A stretch of DNA of 64,000 bases. Source: Ferroplasma acidarmanus Fer1 (GTDB lineage Archaea; Thermoplasmatota; Thermoplasmata; Thermoplasmatales; Thermoplasmataceae). Below the pieces are notes generated by a model, which worked only from the letters and a program-made list of their open reading frames with translations, did no database searches and was not told where the DNA came from. Position numbers and translations under genes: made by a program. This document shows, piece by piece, positions 37,305 to 55,861 of the stretch. Location: assembly GCF_000152265.2 (NCBI RefSeq), contig NC_021592.1, positions 1,612,001 to 1,676,000 of the forward strand. Direction: 5' to 3'. Positions within the stretch are counted from its first letter, which is position 1. Every line of letters starts with the position of its first letter.

Positions 37305-37497
37305 TTTTATCCATAACTCCATTATGGCAATGATCAGGGAATACTGTGAGTTCTTTGTGGGTCAATCCACCGTATATAGTATGTATATCCCTTTTCATAT
37401 TCAAGTATAAAAATAATGTATATTGTGCAAATGCACCGATAATAAGCAAGGCTGTTGGAATATGGAAAGGGAGAGTGTGAACTGGTCTGGAGGTTAT
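37305..37497 (+). ncRNA. Candidate IS110 bridge RNA region
   Basis: Bacterial IS110-group elements encode a structured bridge RNA in the non-coding left end before the recombinase gene. The corresponding 190-bp interval here has no open frame and contains small stem-loops (GTGG-GTCAAT-CCAC near 37357, GTGC-AAAT-GCAC near 37427). Location and length fit; the RNA itself is not demonstrated. Confidence 0.4.
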
Positions 37498-38622
37498 ATG
37501 ATATATGTTGGAATAGATATAGCTAAAAAGAAGTTTGATTATTGCATTATAAACAGTGAAATGAATTTAATAAAAAGGGGAATACTGATAAACAATAACT
37601 ATGGCTTCAGTGAATTTCTAAAGATAATAAAGAATTATAGAAATATAAAAATAGGAATGGAATCAACAAGTATATACCATGTGAATTTATACAATTATTT
37701 AATAGAAAACAGTCGCAGTGCAATAATATTAAACTCTCTGGAGACAAAATTATTGAAGAGTTCAAGGATAAGGAAGAATAAGACAGATAAAATAGATGCA
37801 GAAGCAATAGCAAAATATATTATCATACGTAAAAACAATATAATTACCATGGATAAAAATACTGAGAATACTTACACAAATCTTAAGGAATACGTATACA
37901 CATACATAAGAATAAACAGGAAAATAACAATGGCAAAGAACCAGTTAATAGTAGATATGGATCTATTATACCCCGGATTAACCGCGGTGGCCAATGTTAA
38001 TTCCAAATATTTCATGGAAATAATAAGCAACATAGATCAAATCATTGAAAATAATTATAAAATAAAATATATCAGTGACAGTAAACACAGTGAAATAAGA
38101 AATATCTTAATAAACAGCAATACTAATAATGCAGTCAAATACGACATAGATATAAACATTGAAACACTGGAATTATTGAACAAGCAGTTAATGAAAACAA
38201 AAAATATCATAGAAGATGAGTATAATAGTATGGATTCCAAAATAAAGACAATTCCAGGAATAGGGACTATAACAGGTTCTATAATATTGTCATCTATAGG
38301 AGACATAAACAGGTTTGATTCTATTATAAAGCTAAGGGCCTATTCAGGTATGGATCCAGTGGTTAAACAATCTGGGGATTATAATATTACATCAAAAATA
38401 TCAAAAAGGGGAAACCCGTTAATAAGGTATGCACTGTATTTATCAACTGTATCTGCTATTAGATTTAATCCAGTAATTAAAAGATATTACACAAGGAAGA
38501 AGAATGATGGCATGAAAGGAAATAAGCTATTAATTGCGTGTTCCAACAAATTACTGAATATCATATACTCCGTATTGAAGAATAATAAGGATTTTGAAGA
38601 TCCTCTGAATAATATAAATTAA
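37498..38622 (+). CDS. IS110-family transposase/recombinase
   Basis: A 374-residue DEDD recombinase. The N-terminal RuvC-like domain shows MIYVGIDIAKKKFDY (first Asp), IGMESTSIYH (Glu) and KTDKIDAEAIAKY (last acids). The C-terminal Tnp-20 domain shows IPGIGTITGSIILSSIGDINRF and YSGMDPVVKQSG, with a serine in SKISKRGNPLIRYALY. The start is the ATG directly behind the GGAGGT site at 37489-37494; an in-frame upstream ATG exists but lacks a site. Frame intact, so the element could be mobile. Confidence 0.9.
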   Translation: MIYVGIDIAKKKFDYCIINSEMNLIKRGILINNNYGFSEFLKIIKNYRNIKIGMESTSIYHVNLYNYLIENSRSAIILNSLETKLLKSSRIRKNKTDKIDAEAIAKYIIIRKNNIITMDKNTENTYTNLKEYVYTYIRINRKITMAKNQLIVDMDLLYPGLTAVANVNSKYFMEIISNIDQIIENNYKIKYISDSKHSEIRNILINSNTNNAVKYDIDINIETLELLNKQLMKTKNIIEDEYNSMDSKIKTIPGIGTITGSIILSSIGDINRFDSIIKLRAYSGMDPVVKQSGDYNITSKISKRGNPLIRYALYLSTVSAIRFNPVIKRYYTRKKNDGMKGNKLLIACSNKLLNIIYSVLKNNKDFEDPLNNIN

Positions 38623-39418
38623 AAAATAATTAAAGAAAATACGTATTTTTGAATATCAATAGCGTAAGCTATAGAAGTTATGAATATTTATATGTAAAAA
38701 GTAAAATTAATATAGTATACTATATAAACATTATAATATAGAAAAAAGAGTTAAAGAAAAGGTGAAGTTAAACAATAAAAAAATAAAATACATAATCAAA
38801 CAGAAAGAAAAAGGAGAATCATCTAAGAAATTAGCAATTATTTATGGAGTAACTGTAAGGTACATAAATAAGATCTATTTCAATTATTTAGAATATGGAA
38901 AAGAAGAATTATATAAAACAGGAAGAAAGAAAAAGAATATAGACAGCAATACAGAGGAATTAATAATTAACATAAGGGATAATTATCCTTTATCAGGGCC
39001 ATTGCCGATAGAGAAATACCTTAAGGATAAGGGTATACAAATATCGCATAATATTATATACAGAATACTGTTAAAATACAATATGGTAAATGAGGATATT
39101 AATAAGAAGAACCAGAGAAAATACCTGAAGTATGAGAGGGAACATTCTAATTCACTATGGCATATGGACTGGACCAAGTACAGTGATAGTGAGAAATTGA
39201 TAATAATAGAGGATGATGCTTCAAGGTTCATAGTAGGAATGGGAATATACAATGAGGAAACAATAGATAATACAATAGAAGCACTGGAGATAGCTATACA
39301 GTTATGTGGAAAGCCTGAGGAGATATTAACAGACCATGGAACACAGTTCTTCTCAAATGGAAAGAATGGAATACCTGGAGACCACAATAAGTTCCAGGAA
39401 TATTTAGACAACAATAAT

Positions 39419-40417
39419 TAGGGTGTCTCACATTTTAACAATTGACGATTTTCATTATCTTCCTCGGTTTTTCTCCCAGTTCCCTGTTTGATATTACCAT
39501 GAGATTGTACGCAATGGCCTTTAATCCAATTGCAGTATCATAATCCCTGTTCACAGTGTACCAGATATTCTCGCACTTCAGTATCTCTTCAAGTATGCTG
39601 AAAGTACGTTCTATTTCCCATCTAAGAGGATACATTGAAGCATATTCTTTTCTCAGGTCAATGCCTATTTTCCTGTTTACGGGTAACTTATTAGGAATAA
39701 TTCCCCTTCTTTTATTGGTATCAATTACAGGTAGAGCATGTGTATTTTCAAATATATAATCATAAATATCTGATGCATCGTAAGCTGAATCTGCAAGAAT
39801 ATATGAGAAGCCTCTCACAGAATCCACCATATTATGCGACACATGGGAATCATGCATATTTCCCTTTGTAATAAGCCATTCCATTATAATGAGAGAATCT
39901 ATATCTATTGACATATGGCATTTTCTACCATAAGACCATCCCTTTGTGGTCTTTGACCATCCAGATACAGGGTCTTTATAATTACTCCATACTTTTCTCC
40001 TCATTGCAGTTGAATGCTTGCATGTATGGATTATAAATGAATCTATTGCAGCTATTGATTCAACTGAATAAAGATAGGTAATTTCGTTGTTTACTGCATG
40101 GAGGTCTATCATCCTTGCCCTCCTTGAAAGGGTCTGGAAGCTTGGTATTTCTGTGATACCAGCCATTCTGATATATTCCTCATGGTTTGTGAGGAATATT
40201 CTGGCTGATCTATAAGATATATTGAAAATCTGTAAAACTATCAGTACCTTCAATATCTGTCTATCTGTGTACTTTCTTTTCCTGTCATCAGGCGAAACAA
40301 TATTATCTATGATTTCCATAATCAATGGGATTTGCTGTGAGGGCATATCCCATTATTGTTTTTTTGTTAATAATGTTCGACATTTGTCTGATATTTTATG
40401 AAATGTGAGACACCCTA
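39419..40417 (-). mobile_element. IS5-family insertion sequence with 9-bp target duplication
   Basis: A 999-bp element with perfect 17-bp terminal repeats (TAGGGTGTCTCACATTT at 39419, complement ending at 40417). AACAATAAT duplications lie at 39410-39418 and 40418-40426. A 9-bp duplication is typical of the IS903-like branch of IS5. It interrupts the IS481 transposase gene. Confidence 0.93.
39435..40346 (-). CDS. IS5-family DDE transposase
   Basis: A 303-residue transposase with first Asp in IAAIDSFIIHTCKHS, second Asp in YILADSAYDASDIYDY and Glu in PLRWEIERTFSILEEILKCENIWY. The order and the RWEIERTFS block are typical of IS5. Frame and element ends are intact, consistent with recent activity. 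A remnant of a related element is at 35681-35780. Confidence 0.9.
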   Translation of the reverse strand: MPSQQIPLIMEIIDNIVSPDDRKRKYTDRQILKVLIVLQIFNISYRSARIFLTNHEEYIRMAGITEIPSFQTLSRRARMIDLHAVNNEITYLYSVESIAAIDSFIIHTCKHSTAMRRKVWSNYKDPVSGWSKTTKGWSYGRKCHMSIDIDSLIIMEWLITKGNMHDSHVSHNMVDSVRGFSYILADSAYDASDIYDYIFENTHALPVIDTNKRRGIIPNKLPVNRKIGIDLRKEYASMYPLRWEIERTFSILEEILKCENIWYTVNRDYDTAIGLKAIAYNLMVISNRELGEKPRKIMKIVNC

Positions 40418-40737: not shown

Positions 40738-41724
40738 TTGATCTCATTGAACCCATATCTAGTTGTTAGAAAAGTTATACAGGACGTGGTATTAGTTATA
40801 TTCATTCTCATAATACTGTATATAGTATTTAGACTAATGCCCGGTAGCCCGGTCGACCTATTTTTGCATGGTTTGAAGCATCCAACAGCAGCGGACAAAC
40901 TTAGAATTGAGAAAGAACTAGGTTTGGCTGGTGGTAAATTCTCCCTTAGCGGATTCATTATATATTTAAAGGACATGATTACGTTTCATTTCGGAGATGA
41001 TTATTATACCGGTGAGAGTGTTATATTTATGATAAGCCAGGCTTTACCCTATACATTATTATTGTTCGGAGTTGCAGCGGTATTGTCATTTGTAATAGGT
41101 TTACCGCTGGGTATATACACATCTTTTTTAAAGGGCAAAAAATCAGAAGGTGGTGTGATATCTACAGCTACCATCCTAAATTCAATACCATTTTTTGTAC
41201 TGGCCATTGTAGTTTGGGTTTACTTGGCTGCCTATCTTAAAATATTTCCAATAACTGCAGTCTTCCCTCTTAGATATATTACACATCCTTCGCTTGGAAC
41301 GCTCAAAGTAGTGGCTTATGATTATGCAATGCCCATATTAACTCTCACAGCTATAGAATCGATGGGCCATCTTTTAACTATGAGAGCGGCAATGGTATCT
41401 GTGTTGGGAGAAGATTTTATAACGACTGCGGAGGCTAAGGGAGTAAAAAGGAAAAATATAATGTTGCATCATGCAGCTAGAAATGCAATGGTTCCAATGT
41501 CCACAAGAATGGCACTTGAATTTGCATTTTTAATGAGTGGCGCTGTAATAGTGGAGGTTATTTTTGGCATTCCCGGTATGGGAACAGCACTATATGAATC
41601 GACACTCAAGGAAGATTACCCATTCGCAGAAGGTGCATTGTTTATAATTTCTCTGATAGTAATACTTACGTATTCTATAGTAGATTTTATACACGCATGG
41701 ATAGACCCGAGGATAAAGGTGTGA
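40738..41724 (+). CDS. dppB: Peptide ABC transporter permease, DppB-like
   Basis: A 328-residue permease subunit with six predicted helices. It has the N-terminal FRLMPGSPVDLF motif of the DppB/OppB type and the EAA loop TTAEAKGVKRKNIMLHHAARNAMVP, which contacts the ATPase. It forms the membrane channel for oligopeptide import together with the next gene. The start is a TTG placed at leaderless distance from a TATA box; a second TTG lies 9 bp further. The next gene starts 3 bp after the stop codon. Confidence 0.9.
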   Translation: MISLNPYLVVRKVIQDVVLVIFILIILYIVFRLMPGSPVDLFLHGLKHPTAADKLRIEKELGLAGGKFSLSGFIIYLKDMITFHFGDDYYTGESVIFMISQALPYTLLLFGVAAVLSFVIGLPLGIYTSFLKGKKSEGGVISTATILNSIPFFVLAIVVWVYLAAYLKIFPITAVFPLRYITHPSLGTLKVVAYDYAMPILTLTAIESMGHLLTMRAAMVSVLGEDFITTAEAKGVKRKNIMLHHAARNAMVPMSTRMALEFAFLMSGAVIVEVIFGIPGMGTALYESTLKEDYPFAEGALFIISLIVILTYSIVDFIHAWIDPRIKV

Positions 41725-41727
41725 ATT

Positions 41728-43851
41728 ATGAGTAATAAAAGTTATAGAAAAGAAAAATTACAATTTCGGTTATACAATTTCAAGAAAAATTGGAGATTAT
41801 TTTATAATTCAAAATATGGTAAAGTAGGATTTTATATAGTTCTCATTTTTGTTGTATTAGCTTTAATTTCGCCATTGATAATCCAGCACAGTGATTCTTT
41901 AATATATACGGCTCCTGAAGGGGAGTTTACAGTGGCAGACAGACAGCTATCTTCAAAATTGCCTGTAATAGTTAGTGGAATAAGTGCATCATCCAGCTCT
42001 GCAGATGGAGTATATCTGGTATATACAGCATCCGCTTCAGGAATATATGGTGTAGATGTTTGTAATGGGACTTTTTATCATTTAGATCAGAGTCGCACAC
42101 CCGTAAATAATATAACTGCAATTACTGCAGAAAGTCTAATAAGTGGTGTGCATACATACGTTATAGCAAATACTTCAGGCAACATCCTGATAGGAGAGAC
42201 AACATGGTCTTCAGGGATTGAAGGGCATGGAACACCTACCATGCAGGTTACAAAAATACCTATGAATAATGTAACAGGACTATTTACAAGTGGTTTTACA
42301 GATCATTCACTGATGGCATCGTACACCATTGAATACGATTCAGCATACTATGCCTATCCCGATTATCCTGTGTATATTTATATAATTTCACATAATACTA
42401 CAGGTTATTATTTAAACCAGTATTATATGTATAATCTGTTACACGGCACAAATGGTGCAGAACATTCTATTAAATTGCCATATAACGTAAAACCTACGAA
42501 TTATGAGTTTGATGCAGCAGGCTTTAGTAGCAGTGCAGAAGTTTTTGTTTCCCAGGGGAATCACCTTCTTGGATATACAACTACAGGCAAGCTTGAAACG
42601 AATATCACTTTAAAACAAAATATAAATATGATATACATACCAAGTGCATATAAAACGTCTAACAATTCATATAATAGAGTATTTGTTCAAGGCAATACGT
42701 CCATTTACAGTATTAACACTTTTAATGATTCTGAATCTATGATATTCAATACAGCAAATAGAATAACTACAGTATCCAGCACTGGAGGTTCTACAGGTTA
42801 CCCATCGTATGTGCTTGTAGGAGTATCAAATAAAACAATGTATATATTGGATAAGCCAAACAGTGTCTTAAGAACGATGTCATTGCCTATTAATATTAAT
42901 AGAATTGATGTCTTTTCAGATAATTTCCTTTTAGACAATGATACTGGAGCTTATATATTTTTACCGGCGGATCATATGGCAACCGGGTCTTATGTGTGGA
43001 GCCTGAGCTTTAAAAATGGTTCGTCCCCCTTATTCTTTGCGAACCCGTTAAGCGGTGGAAGAGAATCATTTGCTATTTCACACGGCGATAATATTTCTAT
43101 ATACTCAACTGCAGGCAAGGATCTGAATCCACTACCTCCAACATTGACTCCGGTAGGTGGAAATAGTATACTCCCGCTGGGAACAACTGCACATGGCAAT
43201 GATGCATGGTCGCAATTTATAGGTAGTTTCTTAACAGACATAGAAATAGGAATTACAGTTGGTATAGGTATACTCTTAATATCTTTAGCCATAGGCATGC
43301 TAATAGGTTATTTTGCTGGTATAGTAAGTGCGGGTTTTGAAACACTGTCTCTTGCAATATACCTGATACCCAGCCTTCCTTTACTTATTGTTGTAGCGGC
43401 AATAGTCGGGCCATCACTTACCGGGATAATACTGGTATTAACACTTCTAAGTTGGCCATTTGCAGCGTTTACCCTCATAGGTATAGTCAGAAGCCTCAAA
43501 AATAGGGCATTTGTTGATTCAGCAAAAGTATCAGGAGCAGGCACTTTCCAGATATTAAAGAATCATATGTTAAAAAATGTCACACCTATATTAGTTTATT
43601 TAACGGCAATTAATATTGGAGGGGCAGTGGCAGCAGTATCAACATTACAGGTTCTTGGGATAGCTCCACTAACAGTGCCGACATGGGGAGGAATGCTTGA
43701 TGGGTTCTACTCTGATGCTTTTGCATTGGCTCTGGCACCATGGTGGTTTATGCCCCCAATAATTGCAATTACACTATTCATATTAGCTTTCATATTCCTA
43801 TCCAGAGGAATGGATAACGTTGTAAATCCAAGAATAGGTGGTCGTAGATGA
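41728..43851 (+). CDS. dppC: Peptide ABC transporter permease, DppC-like, with large external insertion
   Basis: A 707-residue protein, more than twice the usual 280-300 of DppC. Helix 1 (about residues 34-54, VGFYIVLIFVVLALISPLII) is followed by about 430 residues rich in Ser, Thr, Asn, Tyr and Gly with repeated beta-like blocks, predicted outside the cell. The normal permease domain occupies residues about 490-705 with the EAA loop VDSAKVSGAGTFQILKNHML. The insertion may be a beta-propeller or beta-sandwich that binds peptides or stabilises the binding protein at low pH; this is inference. Its stop overlaps the ATPase gene by four bases. Confidence 0.87.
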   Translation: MSNKSYRKEKLQFRLYNFKKNWRLFYNSKYGKVGFYIVLIFVVLALISPLIIQHSDSLIYTAPEGEFTVADRQLSSKLPVIVSGISASSSSADGVYLVYTASASGIYGVDVCNGTFYHLDQSRTPVNNITAITAESLISGVHTYVIANTSGNILIGETTWSSGIEGHGTPTMQVTKIPMNNVTGLFTSGFTDHSLMASYTIEYDSAYYAYPDYPVYIYIISHNTTGYYLNQYYMYNLLHGTNGAEHSIKLPYNVKPTNYEFDAAGFSSSAEVFVSQGNHLLGYTTTGKLETNITLKQNINMIYIPSAYKTSNNSYNRVFVQGNTSIYSINTFNDSESMIFNTANRITTVSSTGGSTGYPSYVLVGVSNKTMYILDKPNSVLRTMSLPININRIDVFSDNFLLDNDTGAYIFLPADHMATGSYVWSLSFKNGSSPLFFANPLSGGRESFAISHGDNISIYSTAGKDLNPLPPTLTPVGGNSILPLGTTAHGNDAWSQFIGSFLTDIEIGITVGIGILLISLAIGMLIGYFAGIVSAGFETLSLAIYLIPSLPLLIVVAAIVGPSLTGIILVLTLLSWPFAAFTLIGIVRSLKNRAFVDSAKVSGAGTFQILKNHMLKNVTPILVYLTAINIGGAVAAVSTLQVLGIAPLTVPTWGGMLDGFYSDAFALALAPWWFMPPIIAITLFILAFIFLSRGMDNVVNPRIGGRR

Positions 43852-45968
43852 TTAATGAAGAAGAATCAAATGAAATAAACAAAATACCCTTAAAAATAGA
43901 GAACCTGTCTGTTACATTTAAAACCTTCGGTGGCATGGTTCATGCTCTGACTAACATAAACTTGACTTTGCATGAGGGAGAAACTTTGGGCATTTTAGGC
44001 GAGTCCGGTTCAGGAAAGAGTACAATAGCTATGTCTATAATGTCCCTGCTTGCGCCAAATGCAATAGTTGATGGAAGCATAACATTCAAGGATAACACAT
44101 ATGTTTCAGGCAGTGCCACAAAAATAAGCAGGAAGAGTAAAAAAACATTATATGAAAATCTCCGAAATATGAGGTGGAAGAATATATCAATGGTTTTCCA
44201 GGGTGCTATGAACTCATTTAATCCTGTTTATACTATAAGGAAACAGATTGCAGAGGCATTCAAAATACATACTGATTATACTGATGAAGAAATAGATAAA
44301 AAGCTCCTGGAGACCGTGAAATTAGCTGGATTAAATCCCTCGGTCCTTGATGCATATCCCCATGAATTGTCTGGAGGTATGAAACAGAGGGCGGTAATAG
44401 CAATGGCACTAGCCTTGGGTCCGGATATAGTTATAGCCGATGAACCAACAACAGGTCTCGATGTGATAACACAGGCTGAAATAATTTCTCAACTAAAAAA
44501 GTTAAAACAGGAGAATAAAATAAAATCGTTAATAATTATTTCCCACGATATAGGCGTTATATCCCAGCTAGCAGATCACATAGTTGTCCTGTATGCAGGA
44601 AAAATGATGGAATATGGCACGTCGAGGGATATTTATATTAATTCAAAAAATCCATATTCTATAGAACTTCTAAAGAGTTATCCGAGTATTAGTAATGGAA
44701 AGAAACATGTTAATGGTATTCCCGGTACATTACCAGATCCAATTAAACTTATAAGAGGATGCCGTTTTTATGAAAGATGTTATTTTGCAAACGATGTATG
44801 TAAAGAGAGTGACCCTGAACTAAAGAAAGTGGGAGATGAGCACTATAGTGCATGTTTCTTCGCAGACACACTTAAACCAAATAAATTAAATTCTGAGGAA
44901 TACAATGAAAATTATGTGGTAAGTAATGACAATATAATTGAAACAAAGAATTTAAAAAAATATTTTGATTTAAAAGGAGGTGCAGGTTCACTTTTTGCAA
45001 GATCACACAGTTTTGTACGGGCTGTGGATGATGTAAATATCTACTTAAGGAGAGGTGAAATACTTGGAATTGTTGGTGAATCTGGATCAGGCAAAACAAC
45101 ACTTGGGAGAACTCTCATAAAATTATACGAAGCTACCGGCGGTAATATATATTACCATTTAAACAACAAAACTATAGATATTACAAAATTAACTAAGAAG
45201 AATAGATCAGAGGAAGAATATAAGGAATTTAAAAGAAATATACAGATGATTTTTCAGGATCCCTATGATTCGTTGGACCCGAAGATGACCGTTTTCGATA
45301 TAGTATCAGAGCCTGTAATTGCCCATAGATATACCAATAATCCAGAAGAAATGCAAAATATGGTAGCAGCAGCTTTAAAGCAGGTTAATTTAAATCCACC
45401 CAGCAATTATCTTTACAGGTTTCCCTATGAGCTATCAGGTGGCGAAAAACAGCGTGTTGCAACCGCCAGGGCACTTATTTTAAAAACAAAGTTTATTATT
45501 GCCGATGAGCCCACGTCAATGCTCGACGTTTCTTTAAGGGCCGGATTTATGAACATGTTGAATAATATAAGGAAAACTGATGAGCTATCGGTAATATACA
45601 TCTCACATGATATAGCCTCTGTATATTATTTATCCGATAGAATTGCAGTTATGTACCTGGGTGTTCTGGTTGAATATGGCAATGCAGATGATATAATCAA
45701 TAATCCTTTACATCCATATACAAAAGCTTTAATCAGGGCAATACCTCTACCAACTCCTGATTGGGATCCAGGAGATATAGAAATAATCGGAGAAATAGGA
45801 AATGCTATAAATGTAGAAAAAGGTTGCAGATTCTATGGCCGTTGTATATACCATCAGAAAATATGCAAGGATACTCCGCCTCCATTGAAAGAAGTAAATG
45901 GGCATTCCTATGTATGTCATTTCACCGAAGAAGAATTATTGAGGAACAAAAATGAGTTTAAGCGATAA
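43848..45968 (+). CDS. Peptide ABC transporter ATPase, fused DppD-DppF
   Basis: Two complete ABC ATPase domains in 706 residues. The first has Walker A GESGSGKST (51-59) and signature LSGGMKQR near 172; the second has GESGSGKTT near 410 and LSGGEKQR near 527. Each is followed by the cysteine-containing oligopeptide-transporter tail (GCRFYERCYFANDVC and GCRFYGRCIYHQKIC). In most organisms these are two proteins; the fusion fixes a one-to-one ratio. It energises the two permeases upstream. The stop lies 17 bp inside the following small membrane-protein gene. Confidence 0.93.
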   Translation: MINEEESNEINKIPLKIENLSVTFKTFGGMVHALTNINLTLHEGETLGILGESGSGKSTIAMSIMSLLAPNAIVDGSITFKDNTYVSGSATKISRKSKKTLYENLRNMRWKNISMVFQGAMNSFNPVYTIRKQIAEAFKIHTDYTDEEIDKKLLETVKLAGLNPSVLDAYPHELSGGMKQRAVIAMALALGPDIVIADEPTTGLDVITQAEIISQLKKLKQENKIKSLIIISHDIGVISQLADHIVVLYAGKMMEYGTSRDIYINSKNPYSIELLKSYPSISNGKKHVNGIPGTLPDPIKLIRGCRFYERCYFANDVCKESDPELKKVGDEHYSACFFADTLKPNKLNSEEYNENYVVSNDNIIETKNLKKYFDLKGGAGSLFARSHSFVRAVDDVNIYLRRGEILGIVGESGSGKTTLGRTLIKLYEATGGNIYYHLNNKTIDITKLTKKNRSEEEYKEFKRNIQMIFQDPYDSLDPKMTVFDIVSEPVIAHRYTNNPEEMQNMVAAALKQVNLNPPSNYLYRFPYELSGGEKQRVATARALILKTKFIIADEPTSMLDVSLRAGFMNMLNNIRKTDELSVIYISHDIASVYYLSDRIAVMYLGVLVEYGNADDIINNPLHPYTKALIRAIPLPTPDWDPGDIEIIGEIGNAINVEKGCRFYGRCIYHQKICKDTPPPLKEVNGHSYVCHFTEEELLRNKNEFKR

Positions 45969-46293
45969 GCCTAAACTAAAATTTTCTTTAATACCAATTA
46001 TAATACTAATTGCTATGATATTTATACCGTTGCCTTTTCACTTCTTTTTTAGATTTAATTACATTTATTATATGCCAGTCCTATTTTTTATTGCAGGATT
46101 TTTTGTGATTTTTGTAGGTGCGTGGTACGATTTTGGCGCAAAAAAGTATGTTACATCTTTGTTTCAATCAAGGCAGCACATTGAAGATTCTGATTTTAAC
46201 GATATATATAAGCAACAATTAATTATGACACTGATATTTATTGGCATTGGAATATTGTACATGATTGTTGGGTATGTCATTTTTGTAATATAA
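45952..46293 (+). CDS. Small membrane protein, last gene of the peptide transporter operon
   Basis: A 113-residue protein with three hydrophobic segments: about 13-30 (IPIIILIAMIFIPLPFHFF), 35-60 (YMPVLFFIAGFFVIFVGAWY) and 90-112 (MTLIFIGIGILYMIVGYVIFVI). No family recognised. It overlaps the fused ATPase gene by 17 bp, so it is cotranslated with it. It could be an accessory subunit of the transporter. It converges with the tricorn gene, leaving 23 bp between stop codons. Confidence 0.6.
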   Translation: MSLSDKPKLKFSLIPIIILIAMIFIPLPFHFFFRFNYIYYMPVLFFIAGFFVIFVGAWYDFGAKKYVTSLFQSRQHIEDSDFNDIYKQQLIMTLIFIGIGILYMIVGYVIFVI

Positions 46294-50730: not shown

Positions 50731-51712
50731 TGTACTGTCCCATTATTATTTCCTTTATATACCGTATGAATTTATATTTTTTCATTTTACCACCATTTTA
50801 TTTTTATATGCCATTGCAGGTGTAACTATATTATCACCATCAGATAGGGAATCGTGCATCCTTTCATAGTTGTAATGGTACACTACTTCTTCCCAGGTAC
50901 TGAAATATGGACTTAAACGTTTTATGGTATAGTTTAACCTCTCCAGCTTTCCATTTGTTTCCGGGTGCCTTACCCTTCCTAATATATGTTTTATATTGTT
51001 GTTATCCAAGTATTCCTGGAACTTATTGTGGTCTCCAGGTATTCCATTCTTTCCATTTGAAAAGAACTGTGTTCCATGGTCTGTTAATATCTCCTCAGGC
51101 TTACCGTAAGTGTTTATTGCTATTTCTAAAGCTTCTATTGTATTATCTATTGTTTCCTCATTGTATATTCCCATTCCTACTATGAACCTTGAAGCATCAT
51201 CTTCTATTATTATTAACTTCTCACTGTCACTATATTTAGTCCAGTCCATATGCCATAGTGAATTGGAATGTTCCCTCTCGTATTTTATATATTTCCTCTG
51301 TTTCTTCTTGTTAGTGCTGTTATCCACCATATTTAATAATAACAGTATTCTGTATATATTGTTTTTAGCTATTGTTATTCCTTTTCTTTTAAGGTATTTC
51401 CTTATTCTTTCAGGCCCTGACATAGGGTATTCATATCTTATTTCTTTAACTATTTCTACATCTTTGCTGTTTAATTCCCTATGTTTTCTTTTACCTATTG
51501 TATATTCCCCATTATCCCTGTATTTTTTGTAAATATAATTTACATACCTTGCTGTAATTTTCATTTCCTTAGCTATTTCTGTAGATGATCTCCTTTTATT
51601 TTTCTCCCTTATTATGTATTTTATTTTTTTCTCATTTAACTTCATTCTGGGCTTATATTCTTTTATTATATTTTTAGAGGGTATATATAGGAAATATTTA
51701 CGGGGCAATATA
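50731..51712 (-). mobile_element. IS481-type insertion sequence with 15-bp target duplication
   Basis: A 982-bp element. The ends TGTACTGTCCC...TTTCCTTTATATACC and (complement of right) TATATTGCCCC...TTTCCTATATATACC match over most of 33 bp. AATAAAGTAGATAAT is duplicated exactly at 50716-50730 and 51713-51727. It lies a few bases upstream of the TATA box of the peptide-binding-protein gene. Confidence 0.9.
50782..51645 (-). CDS. IS481-type transposase (rve integrase)
   Basis: A 287-residue transposase with an N-terminal helix-turn-helix (SSTEIAKEMKITARYVNYIYKKY) and an rve DDE domain: HMDWTKY (Asp), LTDHGTQFFSNG (Asp) and RHPETNGKLERLNYTIKR (Glu). The start is placed at the Met of KLNEKKIKYII (51645), aligning with the start of the other copy; an in-frame ATG lies 63 bp upstream near the element end. 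The frame is intact. The middle of the protein is nearly identical to the interrupted copy at 38762. Confidence 0.9.
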   Translation of the reverse strand: MKLNEKKIKYIIREKNKRRSSTEIAKEMKITARYVNYIYKKYRDNGEYTIGKRKHRELNSKDVEIVKEIRYEYPMSGPERIRKYLKRKGITIAKNNIYRILLLLNMVDNSTNKKKQRKYIKYEREHSNSLWHMDWTKYSDSEKLIIIEDDASRFIVGMGIYNEETIDNTIEALEIAINTYGKPEEILTDHGTQFFSNGKNGIPGDHNKFQEYLDNNNIKHILGRVRHPETNGKLERLNYTIKRLSPYFSTWEEVVYHYNYERMHDSLSDGDNIVTPAMAYKNKMVVK

Positions 51713-51763: not shown

Positions 51764-54700
51764 ATGAAGAAAAAGTTTAATAATACCGAAAAAAATAAAA
51801 AGTTAATAAAGGTATTGGTTGTGATAGCAGTGATTTTTGTTTCTGCTATGTTTGTTGGCGAAGCTTTCCAGGGTGCTATAAACACACTTGGAACAACCCC
51901 CAGCACACAATCAAATACCCAGCCGGATGCGCAGGGCAACGTTTTTTCAACACCGACATATACGAACGGCACATATAAGGTAGCCGAAGTTGGGAATATT
52001 AACCATCTAAGCTTGTTCTCTGCTACCAGTGTCTGTGATTTTGAACTTCTAGACGAAATATATGATACGCCCTATAACTTCTTCCCGAACGAGACAGTAG
52101 GCCCATGGCTAGCTACAGGGGTAACAGGCTATTCTGTTGCCGGACATAACATAACCACAGTTGACCCATTAAATGGAACAAAAATGAATGTTAATTACAT
52201 ATACACATTACATATAAGATCCGGTGTCAAATGGCAGGACTGGACATCTGCAAATGCTGGCGATACATATTCATATCCTCTAACCCAGACATTTTTGGGC
52301 ACAAATGGCAAGCCAGCGGATGTAAACAATACTATAATATATGATACAGCAGTGGGACATAATATAACTGTAGCAACGAAAAACCTTACAATGCAAACGT
52401 ATGACGTACAGTCTGCCGATTTCATACTTTCATGGGAAATATTATTCGAATCTGAAGATTTCGAAGGCGAGTACCCCAGCATTGTTAATATCGTGCCTGT
52501 AAACAATTTAACTGTAGAGTACTACTTAAGTACACCTGTGCCTATATCCTTATTCAAGGAAACGGCACTGGACACGCCGATAATGCCTTACAACGTATGG
52601 GATTCCCATGCATATTCCTCAATTAGCGGTCTGTGGAACTATTCAGCAACACTACCATCATCCGGGGCATACAACACCTGGAATCTGGGATATAACCCTT
52701 CAACAGGATACGCACCTGGATTAGTAGGATCTGGACCATACATGATGTATGCAGGGTTCGGAATGCCAAAGGGTGCATGGATATCCAGCGATTACTGGCA
52801 ATTATATGTAAACCCGGATTACTTTGTGCAGTATGTTCCAAGCCTTTCACAATTTACACCGAAAGTATACAGCATATACGCTGCAATATATACTTCAGAT
52901 TCTGCAGCAGTAGCCTCATTATCTGATGGGCAGACATACGCAATGTTGAATGCCCTTCCAGCTACGTTTATACCGACAGTAAAGGGTATACCCAGTTCGT
53001 ACATATATGATAAGGCCGGAACGGGATACGGGTACCAGCAGGTAAGCTCATATGCAGCAAATGCGCCTTTCAATATTACAGATTTGAGGGTGGCATTGGA
53101 ATACGCAATACCGAAGACGTATCTTGCATCAGTCGTTGCTGAAGGCTACTCAATACCCGGGCCAGACACTCCTGTACCGGATTCAGATATACTGTGGCAG
53201 GCATCCGGTGTTCCATATTACCACTTTGACCTTGCAAAGGCAAAATCGTATATAGACGATGCAATAAATGCAACTAAAGGGATGCCGTCGGCTAATGTAT
53301 TGAGCTATTCAAGAACAACTCCTGGAGTACTTTCAGGAACAACATTGTACTATGGAGGAAAACCGGTTACACAGACAATACAGATAACCTCTGCCTCTGA
53401 AGATCCACTGGGAGTCGAGGGTGCAAACAAGATAGCCACTTACTGGACAGACCTTGGAATCTCTACAACAGTTAAAGAAGAGTCTTTCTCGACATTAGTG
53501 GCTAATTTAGGGGCCCAATCACCGACAAACCCTACAGCATTCCAAGAAATTGATCTAGCGTTATCAGATATAGTGCTCAATCCTGCAGATGATTTATCAG
53601 CATTTGAAAACTCATATCTTGGTGCAGGCACAGGCTTCTACCTCGGTCCGTTCACAACGTTTAATTACACATCAGGCCCAAGCTTTGCAGTAAACCTGAC
53701 AACTGGGAACATAAGTACATCTAGCACAGTCATAAGTGAGAATCCAGCAGCATTCAGCCCAAATATGTCATTAGTGCATGATAAAACTTACAGTGGCGCA
53801 TACGTTACAAACTTCCTGAACAAGCTTGTGAATGAATCATACGTGGAGACAAACGCATCTGCAGAGCATGTGATACTTGATGTATTACAGTATGTTCTGG
53901 CTGACCAGGCAACATTGCAAAACCTTGGATATACTGTGGATCCGATGGCAATAGTCAACTCAACATTTACGGGAATTGACCATGACAGTTTAGCATTAAC
54001 AGGGTTCTGGTACTGGAACTTTATGGACATACACCTTAAAAAGCCTGTAATTGTAACCAAACCAGTTACATTACCATACCAGCTGGAGGTTGGTGTAATA
54101 AGCAATTCCAAGATATACTACAGTGGACAATACGGGAATCTTACTATACAGGTAAGGAATCAGTATGGCCAGGCAATGCCAAATATACCAGTCTCTATTG
54201 GATACATAGCTTCCGATGGTGGAATAGTAAACATTACATCTGTATCCGGGAAAACCAATTCAAATGGCATATACCACTTTGAATTCCTGGTAACTCCTAA
54301 AAATGAGGCTATCTATACAAGTGACTACGCAGGAGATGTACAGTTTACAGTAACAGCTATAGCTCCAAACTCCAGCTACGTAAGTGGAAAAGGATCGTTC
54401 AATGTGGATGTTGAGCCATATGCAGTTGCATATAAAATCGTGAAATATCCTGACTATATATCCACAGCAAATAATACGACCTCGAAAACTACAATGATGG
54501 AGCTTAAGGTATATAATCCTCTTACAGGAACCCCCATATCAGGGTATCAGTACACAGTAGAATCCCTATCCGGATTGGTACAGCTTGTGAATACTACTAA
54601 CCAGGTGTTGACAAACACAACAAACACATACATGTTTGTGGATACAACAGGGCTAAATGGAACAAAAACGGTGCCTATTGCGGATTACAATATGACCAAA

Positions 54701-55861
54701 ATAACAGGGACAACAAACTCAACTGGAGACATAAACATAATGATGGAATACAATTCATCATTTGACTGGAATACAAGCAATGTAGCAGACGGGTTTGCAC
54801 ATACGTATATATTCATGGGTGATTATTCGGGATCAGCTCCAATGGCAGGATTAGCTCCATACATGGATTTAGGCCAGGTCACATCCTCCATGAACCCATC
54901 CGGATTTGGTGTCATACAGCCATTTGAAATACCTGTAATGGTAAATGAATCATCAATGCACGGAGTGCATATATCAGTATCATACAAGGGTACCATAACC
55001 AACAATGGCACGGAAATGATGACCTTAACAGCAACGCAGGATGGGAAACCATTAAGCAACTACAACATAACGGTGACAGCACAGAATGCTCTGGGAGCCA
55101 ATAGAGGATTAGTATATGGCACATCTACATTAGGGACAACATCTGCTACTGATCCAAATTCAGCCTTCGGGTCAACAAGCATGCCTGAATATACGGTGAC
55201 AACAAACAGCGCAGGTGTAGCATATGTTAATTTCACCGCGAGCGAGTACACATACAACTCAACATATGCCTACAAGCTGGTTCCATTCTCATCAACGCAC
55301 CTTGTACCATACGATGAATTCCAGTTAGGGATAATGGGAATGAATGCAACCGGTGCCGAATACTCTGCTGCAACAAGCATAGTATCAACACCATTTGAAT
55401 TCAACAACACAACAAATCCATACATATTCCCGACAGCAACAGTGTACCTCCTGGGCGCATCATACAGCAATGGGTCGTACTTCATACTGAGCGACCACAA
55501 ATACACAATGTACATCAACTCTACCTATAACACAGCAGCAGGCCCCTCATACAAGGATCTATCATTCACAGCATCAACAAACTACGGGCACATATCTGTC
55601 AGTAAGGGCTCAACAGGTTCATCAGGATCATATAAACTGACATACACATCCAAGCCCGTAACCACAATCACAAAGATTACAGTAACTCTGACACTAGCTG
55701 GGTCAGGACAAAAAGAGGCATATACATTCTATGTGCTTCCACACAAAGCACCGTCCTATACACTGTACTATGCAATAATCGGAGTGGTTGCTGTCATAGC
55801 AGCAATATTCATTGCAATGTATGCAATCAGCATGAGGAAGCTAAAGGCTGCTAAAAAATAA
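51764..55861 (+). CDS. Membrane-anchored peptide-binding protein (SBP family 5) with Ig-like domains
   Basis: A 1365-residue extracellular solute-binding protein. Residues about 15-35 are a signal/anchor helix (LIKVLVVIAVIFVSAMFVGEAF). Residues about 65-780 match SBP_bac_5 oligopeptide-binding proteins (YTLHIRSGVKWQDW, SADFILSWEI, VGSGPYMMYAGF, LRVALEYAIPKTYLASVVAEG). Two or more Ig/Big-like segments follow (YGNLTIQVRNQYGQAMPN; TLTATQDGKPLSNYNITVTA), and a C-terminal helix (YYAIIGVVAVIAAIFIAMYAIS) with a basic end anchors it. It is about twice the usual length. No lipobox. The in-frame start at 51614 lies in the IS element and is rejected. It likely serves the permeases at 40738-45968. Confidence 0.88.
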   Translation: MKKKFNNTEKNKKLIKVLVVIAVIFVSAMFVGEAFQGAINTLGTTPSTQSNTQPDAQGNVFSTPTYTNGTYKVAEVGNINHLSLFSATSVCDFELLDEIYDTPYNFFPNETVGPWLATGVTGYSVAGHNITTVDPLNGTKMNVNYIYTLHIRSGVKWQDWTSANAGDTYSYPLTQTFLGTNGKPADVNNTIIYDTAVGHNITVATKNLTMQTYDVQSADFILSWEILFESEDFEGEYPSIVNIVPVNNLTVEYYLSTPVPISLFKETALDTPIMPYNVWDSHAYSSISGLWNYSATLPSSGAYNTWNLGYNPSTGYAPGLVGSGPYMMYAGFGMPKGAWISSDYWQLYVNPDYFVQYVPSLSQFTPKVYSIYAAIYTSDSAAVASLSDGQTYAMLNALPATFIPTVKGIPSSYIYDKAGTGYGYQQVSSYAANAPFNITDLRVALEYAIPKTYLASVVAEGYSIPGPDTPVPDSDILWQASGVPYYHFDLAKAKSYIDDAINATKGMPSANVLSYSRTTPGVLSGTTLYYGGKPVTQTIQITSASEDPLGVEGANKIATYWTDLGISTTVKEESFSTLVANLGAQSPTNPTAFQEIDLALSDIVLNPADDLSAFENSYLGAGTGFYLGPFTTFNYTSGPSFAVNLTTGNISTSSTVISENPAAFSPNMSLVHDKTYSGAYVTNFLNKLVNESYVETNASAEHVILDVLQYVLADQATLQNLGYTVDPMAIVNSTFTGIDHDSLALTGFWYWNFMDIHLKKPVIVTKPVTLPYQLEVGVISNSKIYYSGQYGNLTIQVRNQYGQAMPNIPVSIGYIASDGGIVNITSVSGKTNSNGIYHFEFLVTPKNEAIYTSDYAGDVQFTVTAIAPNSSYVSGKGSFNVDVEPYAVAYKIVKYPDYISTANNTTSKTTMMELKVYNPLTGTPISGYQYTVESLSGLVQLVNTTNQVLTNTTNTYMFVDTTGLNGTKTVPIADYNMTKITGTTNSTGDINIMMEYNSSFDWNTSNVADGFAHTYIFMGDYSGSAPMAGLAPYMDLGQVTSSMNPSGFGVIQPFEIPVMVNESSMHGVHISVSYKGTITNNGTEMMTLTATQDGKPLSNYNITVTAQNALGANRGLVYGTSTLGTTSATDPNSAFGSTSMPEYTVTTNSAGVAYVNFTASEYTYNSTYAYKLVPFSSTHLVPYDEFQLGIMGMNATGAEYSAATSIVSTPFEFNNTTNPYIFPTATVYLLGASYSNGSYFILSDHKYTMYINSTYNTAAGPSYKDLSFTASTNYGHISVSKGSTGSSGSYKLTYTSKPVTTITKITVTLTLAGSGQKEAYTFYVLPHKAPSYTLYYAIIGVVAVIAAIFIAMYAISMRKLKAAKK

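Follow-up and report, generated by a model that had tools for sequence, protein, structure and literature searches.

The gene at positions 41728 to 43851 of the Ferroplasma acidarmanus Fer1 window (the whole stretch of 64,000 nt analysed here) encodes the DppC subunit of an oligopeptide-type ABC importer which, according to structure prediction, carries an eight-bladed beta-propeller outside the cell, in the loop between the helices TM1 and TM2. The initial annotation had described a DppC-type permease with a large extra domain between these two helices, and this was confirmed, the extra part amounting to about 400 residues. The 707-aa frame has no internal stops. The permease genes and the membrane parts of DppC are:

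40738 to 41724, plus strand: DppB permease, 328 aa
41728 to 43851, plus strand: DppC-type permease with extracytoplasmic insert, 707 aa
41812 to 41880, plus strand: TM1 helix, residues 29-51 (AlphaFold2 model; OppC_N match below the cut-off)
43204 to 43836, plus strand: permease core TM2-TM6, residues 493-703
43848 to 45968, plus strand: fused DppD-DppF ATPase, 706 aa

Since the ATPase gene starts at 43848, inside the DppC stop, and DppB ends at 41724, DppC lies in a tight operon, and the company of DppB and oligo_HPY-type ATPases is that of a DppC/OppC permease. In Pfam, residues 520-703 match PF00528 (BPD_transp_1; E 5e-14, 52.8 bits against a cut-off of 26.4) and residues 20-56 match OppC_N with 21.1 bits, not reaching the cut-off of 23.9; between these two segments there was no Pfam match up to E 0.1. 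None of the named NCBIfam permease equivalogs scored above its curated cut-off, the best being Opp4C with 107.8 bits against 350. By sequence, the closest chains of solved structure are those of DppC and OppC, which cover residues 470-703 at most. At the level of structure, the permease fold is like that of E. coli DppC (8z1v, 8z1w) and of M. tuberculosis OppC/DppC (8j5q, 8wd9), with Z 25.5-29.2 over 270-288 residues. The E. coli chain 8z1w_B was aligned with Z 29.2 and rmsd 2.3, and 281 of its 282 residues fell onto about residues 16-703 of our model (VIA-align); the E. coli structures match it from residue 15 or 16 onward. E. coli DppC is 300 aa long and nearly all of it aligns to the permease part of the 707-aa protein, which means that it has no large TM1-TM2 domain.

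The insert and the predicted domain within it were delimited as follows:

41896 to 43167, plus strand: insert with both junctions, residues 57-480, with a conserved AP..(D/E) before and PPT...GG after it
41929 to 43122, plus strand: predicted eight-bladed beta-propeller, residues 68-465, 32 strands (AlphaFold2, Foldseek, VIA-align; blades assigned by hand)

In the AlphaFold2 model TM1 spans residues 29-51, the strands lie within residues 68-465 and the next transmembrane helix starts at residue 493; together with the span of E. coli DppC from 16 to 703, this places the extra domain in the TM1-TM2 loop. The right-hand border agrees with the alignment to five insert-less DppCs, one of them the paralogue from the same genome (at PP...LGT). 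In this alignment the gap opens inside TM1, which leaves the left-hand border to be set by the structure. The TM1-TM2 region of the E. coli transporter faces the periplasm, with the TM4-TM5 coupling helix on the cytoplasmic side (PMC12136057); accordingly, the insert is outside the cell. The size of 430 residues given earlier was close: the insert measures about residues 57-480 from junction to junction, the folded domain being the shorter segment 68-465.

Modelling of the protein alone, which had been proposed as a check, predicted a structured insert, and the expectation of a beta-type folded domain was borne out by a confident all-beta model. It was built from an alignment of 42 sequences and has a mean pLDDT of 84.8, a pTM of 0.71 and 32 strands within residues 68-465; the sole segment with pLDDT under 50 is 194-211. 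A disordered Ser/Thr-rich linker is thus ruled out by the confident fold. The strands form eight four-stranded blades with strand closure in the predicted model, the blades and strands having been assigned by hand, and the last blade is completed by the first strand; both chain ends would therefore leave the propeller on one face, toward the membrane. VIA-align on Foldseek candidates gave Z 28.4 over 330 residues (rmsd 3.2) for Rsa4 (4wju) and Z 27.8 over 339 residues (rmsd 3.3) for Sqt1 (4zov), both on residues 64-463; taken together, the propeller matches cover about residues 62-464 of the model. The best VIA-align row, with Z 29.3, was 7uoo_x, a chain of a pre-60S particle which we take to be Rsa4. 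The designed eight-bladed propeller Tako8 and BamB are among the Foldseek matches listed. Rsa4 and Sqt1 (both WD40-type) and BamB share the fold with 6-11% identity, which implies no common function. A WD40 or PQQ repeat was not found in the insert by Pfam up to E 0.1, and in the viral structure library WD-repeat and PQQ-repeat proteins were among the matches listed, with nothing specific. Based on this model, we assign the insert as an eight-bladed beta-propeller.

A search for the insertion in other genomes, also proposed earlier, found it widely. Some DppC match exists in 108 of 117 genomes of the order and in 309 of 400 genomes of the class sample, insert-less paralogues included in both counts. 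The chosen tree set contains 59 insert-bearing DppCs (58 intact and one split), spread over 20 family codes within the class, which rules out an insert limited to one genome. They group into clade A, which includes the window protein (30 rows), clade B (28 rows) and the single row L127. Fourteen clade-B members were compared with the window protein: their inserts are 10-15% identical to it and their permease cores 28-33%. For the clade-B protein of locus L036, with 13% identity in the insert, a propeller is predicted as well (mean pLDDT 80.9 from 17 sequences); its Z is 21.4 against Apaf-1 and 21.2 against Sqt1. The insert is not a general feature of DppC, as is evident from 27 insert-less rows, among them four from Chloroflexota and an ordinary DppC of 319 aa (L002) from the host genome itself.

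In the permease-core tree with 89 rows, the 27 insert-less DppCs form one side of a branch (94/88, 96% of 200 bootstrap trees), and the insert label requires two changes, forced by the starred branches, because three DppCs of 611-614 aa adjoin L127. These three (L037:6344-8188, L039:6863-8698 and L055:8246-10090) are a separate type with a smaller insert and a clade of their own, paired with a DppB of 530-535 aa. When eight long rows were removed, one change was enough in the resulting 81-row tree (82/99, 81% of bootstrap trees), and several independent gains are unnecessary to explain it. A single gain of the insert is therefore the simplest reading of the trees; it is likely, not proven, with the long branches as a caution. 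Long DppCs may also occur beyond the class. The search across the phylum covered 155 genomes, of which 47 had a match. Of the 29 match rows outside the class, 18 have frames of at most 400 aa and 11 have frames of 436-815 aa; the latter, which include those of G421, G454 and G485, may hold inserts too. Beyond the phylum, the comparison consisted of the four loci from the contig scan, all of them insert-less Chloroflexota permeases.

The probable partner of the permease is a large solute-binding protein (SBP), to which the initial annotation had linked the insert as a guess. The genes downstream of the ATPase are:

45952 to 46293, plus strand: small hydrophobic protein (by eye), 113 aa
46317 to 49397, minus strand: Tricorn protease, convergent neighbour
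51764 to 55861, plus strand: probable partner, SBP_bac_5 binding protein, 1365 aa

The SBP has an Ig-like Big_1 match under the Pfam cut-off and a hydrophobic C-terminal stretch which by eye looks like a membrane anchor. In the window it stands behind Tricorn and the gene 50782-51708, and its pairing with DppC is supported by the loci of relatives, in which the two genes occur together; the genetic tie proposed earlier is thus upheld. We looked for the six window genes in 38 loci with insert-bearing DppCs (24 of clade A, 14 of clade B); as the loci other than the window are at most about 20 kb long, the counts are lower bounds. Downstream of DppC, the ATPases are one fused ORF in 24/24 clade-A and two ORFs in 14/14 clade-B loci. 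The large SBP is present in all 24 clade-A loci, 20 of which were selected because the genome had both genes, and was found by blastp in three of the 14 clade-B loci; its length is 866-1725 aa in the loci read. Of the 24 clade-A loci, 22 have the small hydrophobic protein behind the ATPase gene and at least 13 include Tricorn, which is present in 0/14 clade-B loci. Seven clade-A loci have the full order SBP-DppB-DppC-DppDF-small protein-Tricorn. Putative transposase-like genes, named from their sequence, flank the operon in the window: one region upstream (37423-40346) and the gene 50782-51708 between Tricorn and the SBP gene.

The linkage between the two genes is also seen at the level of genomes. 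Clade-A DppC is present in 38 and the SBP in 37 of the 117 genomes of the order: 35 have both, three have DppC only, two the SBP only and 77 neither (Fisher p 6e-24, kinship ignored). In 33 of the 35 genomes with both, the two genes share a contig and are no more than 12 kb apart. Clade-A DppC and the SBP are both missing from G066, G099 and G101, three near-complete genomes. In the host genome, an SBP frame of ordinary length (608 aa) adjoins the insert-less 319-aa DppC.

The initial annotation had also noted that the insert is rich in Ser, Thr, Asn and Tyr, rightly so (S+T 22.4%, N/Q 10.1%, Y 7.5%), and had suggested that it is adapted to acid outside. This suggestion is not supported for the insert specifically: with D+E 6.8% and K+R 4.2%, its composition matches that of the SBP ectodomain (D+E 7.4%, K+R 3.8%, S+T 21.8%, Y 8.0%) and is no special trait of the insert.

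Based on these observations, we propose as the most likely reading that the propeller acts as an extracytoplasmic cradle for the SBP, comparable in action to the MalF P2 domain, and we give it about an even chance. The propeller would be a permanent cradle beside the translocation pore, which would hold or orient the giant, apparently membrane-tethered SBP over DppB and DppC, so that the peptide may be passed on without loss in an organism without an outer membrane. Once imported, the peptides would be passed to peptidases of the cytoplasm, for example Tricorn, whose gene is often adjacent. That they feed Tricorn is suggested by this neighbourhood, in line with a genome study of Ferroplasma acidiphilum in which peptide transporters and Tricorn are presented together as parts of a peptide-degrading lifestyle (PMC5473848).

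The DppC propeller and MalF P2 are both large extracytoplasmic regions of a permease subunit, but MalF belongs to another permease family, and P2 sits in another loop and is an unrelated, smaller domain. Together with the DppB scoop and the Rv3035-FecB complex, P2 serves as the precedent that favours the cradle. In the maltose importer P2 contacts the SBP (PMC3328499, PMC3150292), and its motion is treated in the second of these papers. In E. coli Dpp, a scoop motif located after TM1 of DppB engages the SBP by entering the cleft of DppA, and the proposal is that it seals the cavity (PMC12136057). In mycobacteria, Rv3035-FecB (PDB 9p3f) is a propeller complexed with an SBP-like protein; unlike the DppC propeller, Rv3035 is a separate protein outside any permease. 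The passages of PMC12802301 on FecB describe its interaction with AftB in envelope synthesis and tie it to no transporter. Taken further, the Thermoplasmata importer could be a pre-assembled machine, in which the DppC propeller keeps the giant tethered SBP captive (in clade A alongside fused ATPases), so that uptake would be independent of free SBP and the coevolving propeller, not the DppB scoop, would be the main SBP contact. We consider this version tentative, and it is probably not correct in full.

The propeller could instead dock another partner outside the cell, for example an extracellular peptidase or the cell coat. BamB, one of the structural matches, acts in protein assembly. Propellers such as Rv3035, whose M. 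marinum orthologue is predicted to be eight-bladed, also act in protein assemblies, and the orthologue is described in this way (PMC12802301); separate secreted propeller proteins exist in the related archaeon 'E-plasma' (PMC10354927). No such partner was found in our loci, which is a weak counterargument as they were scanned for the six window genes only. We regard this possibility as very unlikely.

Whether the insert and the SBP evolve together was analysed in 25 operons. The mean distances were 2.08 for the insert, 1.00 for the SBP, 0.72 for DppDF, 0.66 for DppB and 0.65 for the permease core. The distances of insert and SBP correlate with 0.73, and a partial correlation of 0.28 is left when the core, DppB and DppDF are taken into account (permutation p 0.0015, shared descent ignored). 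The partial correlation with the SBP is 0.51 for the core given DppB and DppDF, and 0.25 for DppB given the core and DppDF. These correlations weakly back a functional linkage, judged from sequence distances, without singling out the propeller.

For the cradle, the evidence points in both directions. In its favour are the strong linkage of the DppC and SBP genes, the partial correlation between insert and SBP, and the ordinary length of the SBP beside the insert-less paralogue. Against it counts that the propeller is the fastest-evolving part (2.08 as opposed to 1.00 for the SBP and 0.65 for the core), which is unusual for a tight conserved interface, that the SBP was found in so few clade-B loci by blastp, and that the ties of the core and DppB to the SBP are about equally strong or stronger.

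The fast evolution is also evident among close relatives. Identity to the two closest congeners is 62% and 50% in the insert and 91% and 85% in the core. The dN/dS of the insert is 0.24 in both comparisons (0.257/1.084 and 0.419/1.718; Nei-Gojobori), a rough value since dS, with 1.08 and 1.72, is near saturation; that of the core is 0.08 and 0.05. All these values are from the NG86 method, YN00 having given a result in one of the four comparisons. The insert thus evolves rapidly yet is under purifying selection. In addition, 41 homologues, which were chosen for having the insert, align in frame through it, and together with the confident fold and the dN/dS of 0.24 this rules out a chance open frame or a misannotated fusion.

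Conservation within the insert was determined in 28 clade-A rows. Of positions 57-480, 52 are conserved at 70% or more, and the best conserved loops are two in neighbouring blades:

42637 to 42675, plus strand: conserved propeller loop, blade 5 a-b, residues 304-316, stalk-side face by hand topology (chosen post hoc)
42781 to 42810, plus strand: conserved propeller loop, blade 6 a-b, residues 352-361, stalk-side face by hand topology (chosen post hoc)

Between the two loop faces of the propeller there is no overall difference in conservation (Mann-Whitney p 0.85; Fisher p 0.24), which also counts against the cradle. A conserved face can therefore not serve as proof of docking, and the patch on blades 5 and 6 is a post hoc observation. 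The position of the conserved residues would suit a propeller which packs on its own permease as a lid or spacer that would stabilise or shield the mouth of the pore and determine how high the long SBP docks, without binding it specifically: 12 of the 52 positions are at the junctions, the two loops lie on the stalk side by hand topology, and fast sequence drift with a kept fold suits a scaffold. The strong co-retention with the SBP gene and the residual correlation with the SBP speak against such a role, as do the paralogous DppCs that do without a propeller in several of the same genomes, and we consider it unlikely.

Propellers often bind ligands, and aromatic and hydroxyl residues are abundant in the insert. 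Its central pocket could thus capture peptides or larger polymers and feed them to the pore or to the SBP. However, no conserved polar set marks the pocket, 34 of the 52 conserved positions being Gly, Pro or aromatic, and a dedicated SBP_bac_5 protein is already encoded; capture by the pocket itself is an improbable explanation.

A propeller DppC across many archaeal families would extend the idea of MalF P2 to peptide importers, and it would offer a natural system for how a permease keeps its binding protein without a periplasm, with the propeller as a domain that could be expressed alone. Further, the recurring Tricorn neighbour suggests a possible role of this protease in digesting imported peptides. 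In open-licence PMC papers, the scope of our literature search, we found no ABC importer permease with an internal beta-propeller. The 'E-plasma' study describes, in the passages concerned, secreted beta-propeller proteins and, separately, oligo/dipeptide transporters, and no propeller within a permease (PMC10354927).

Some individual loci deserve mention. Insertions shortly after TM1 were also seen in DppB, with 292 residues in L126:3577-5514, 141 in L119:13033-14757 and 79 in L036:5953-7428, at the position that the scoop motif occupies in E. coli; in the long DppB of L046 and L037 the extra residues are N-terminal in the alignment. At L129:3101-8197, a single ORF of 1698 aa fuses a long DppB and a long DppC, with matches to the core profile at 295-363, 411-494 and 1476-1698. 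The split insert-bearing DppC (L051:9073-11362) consists of frames of 451 and 278 aa and reflects either a disrupted gene or a fault of the assembly. Finally, locus L098 comes from a genome (G060) labelled as the same species as the window; identity to the corresponding window protein is 37% for its DppC and 79% for its Tricorn, so that either the label or the locus is odd.
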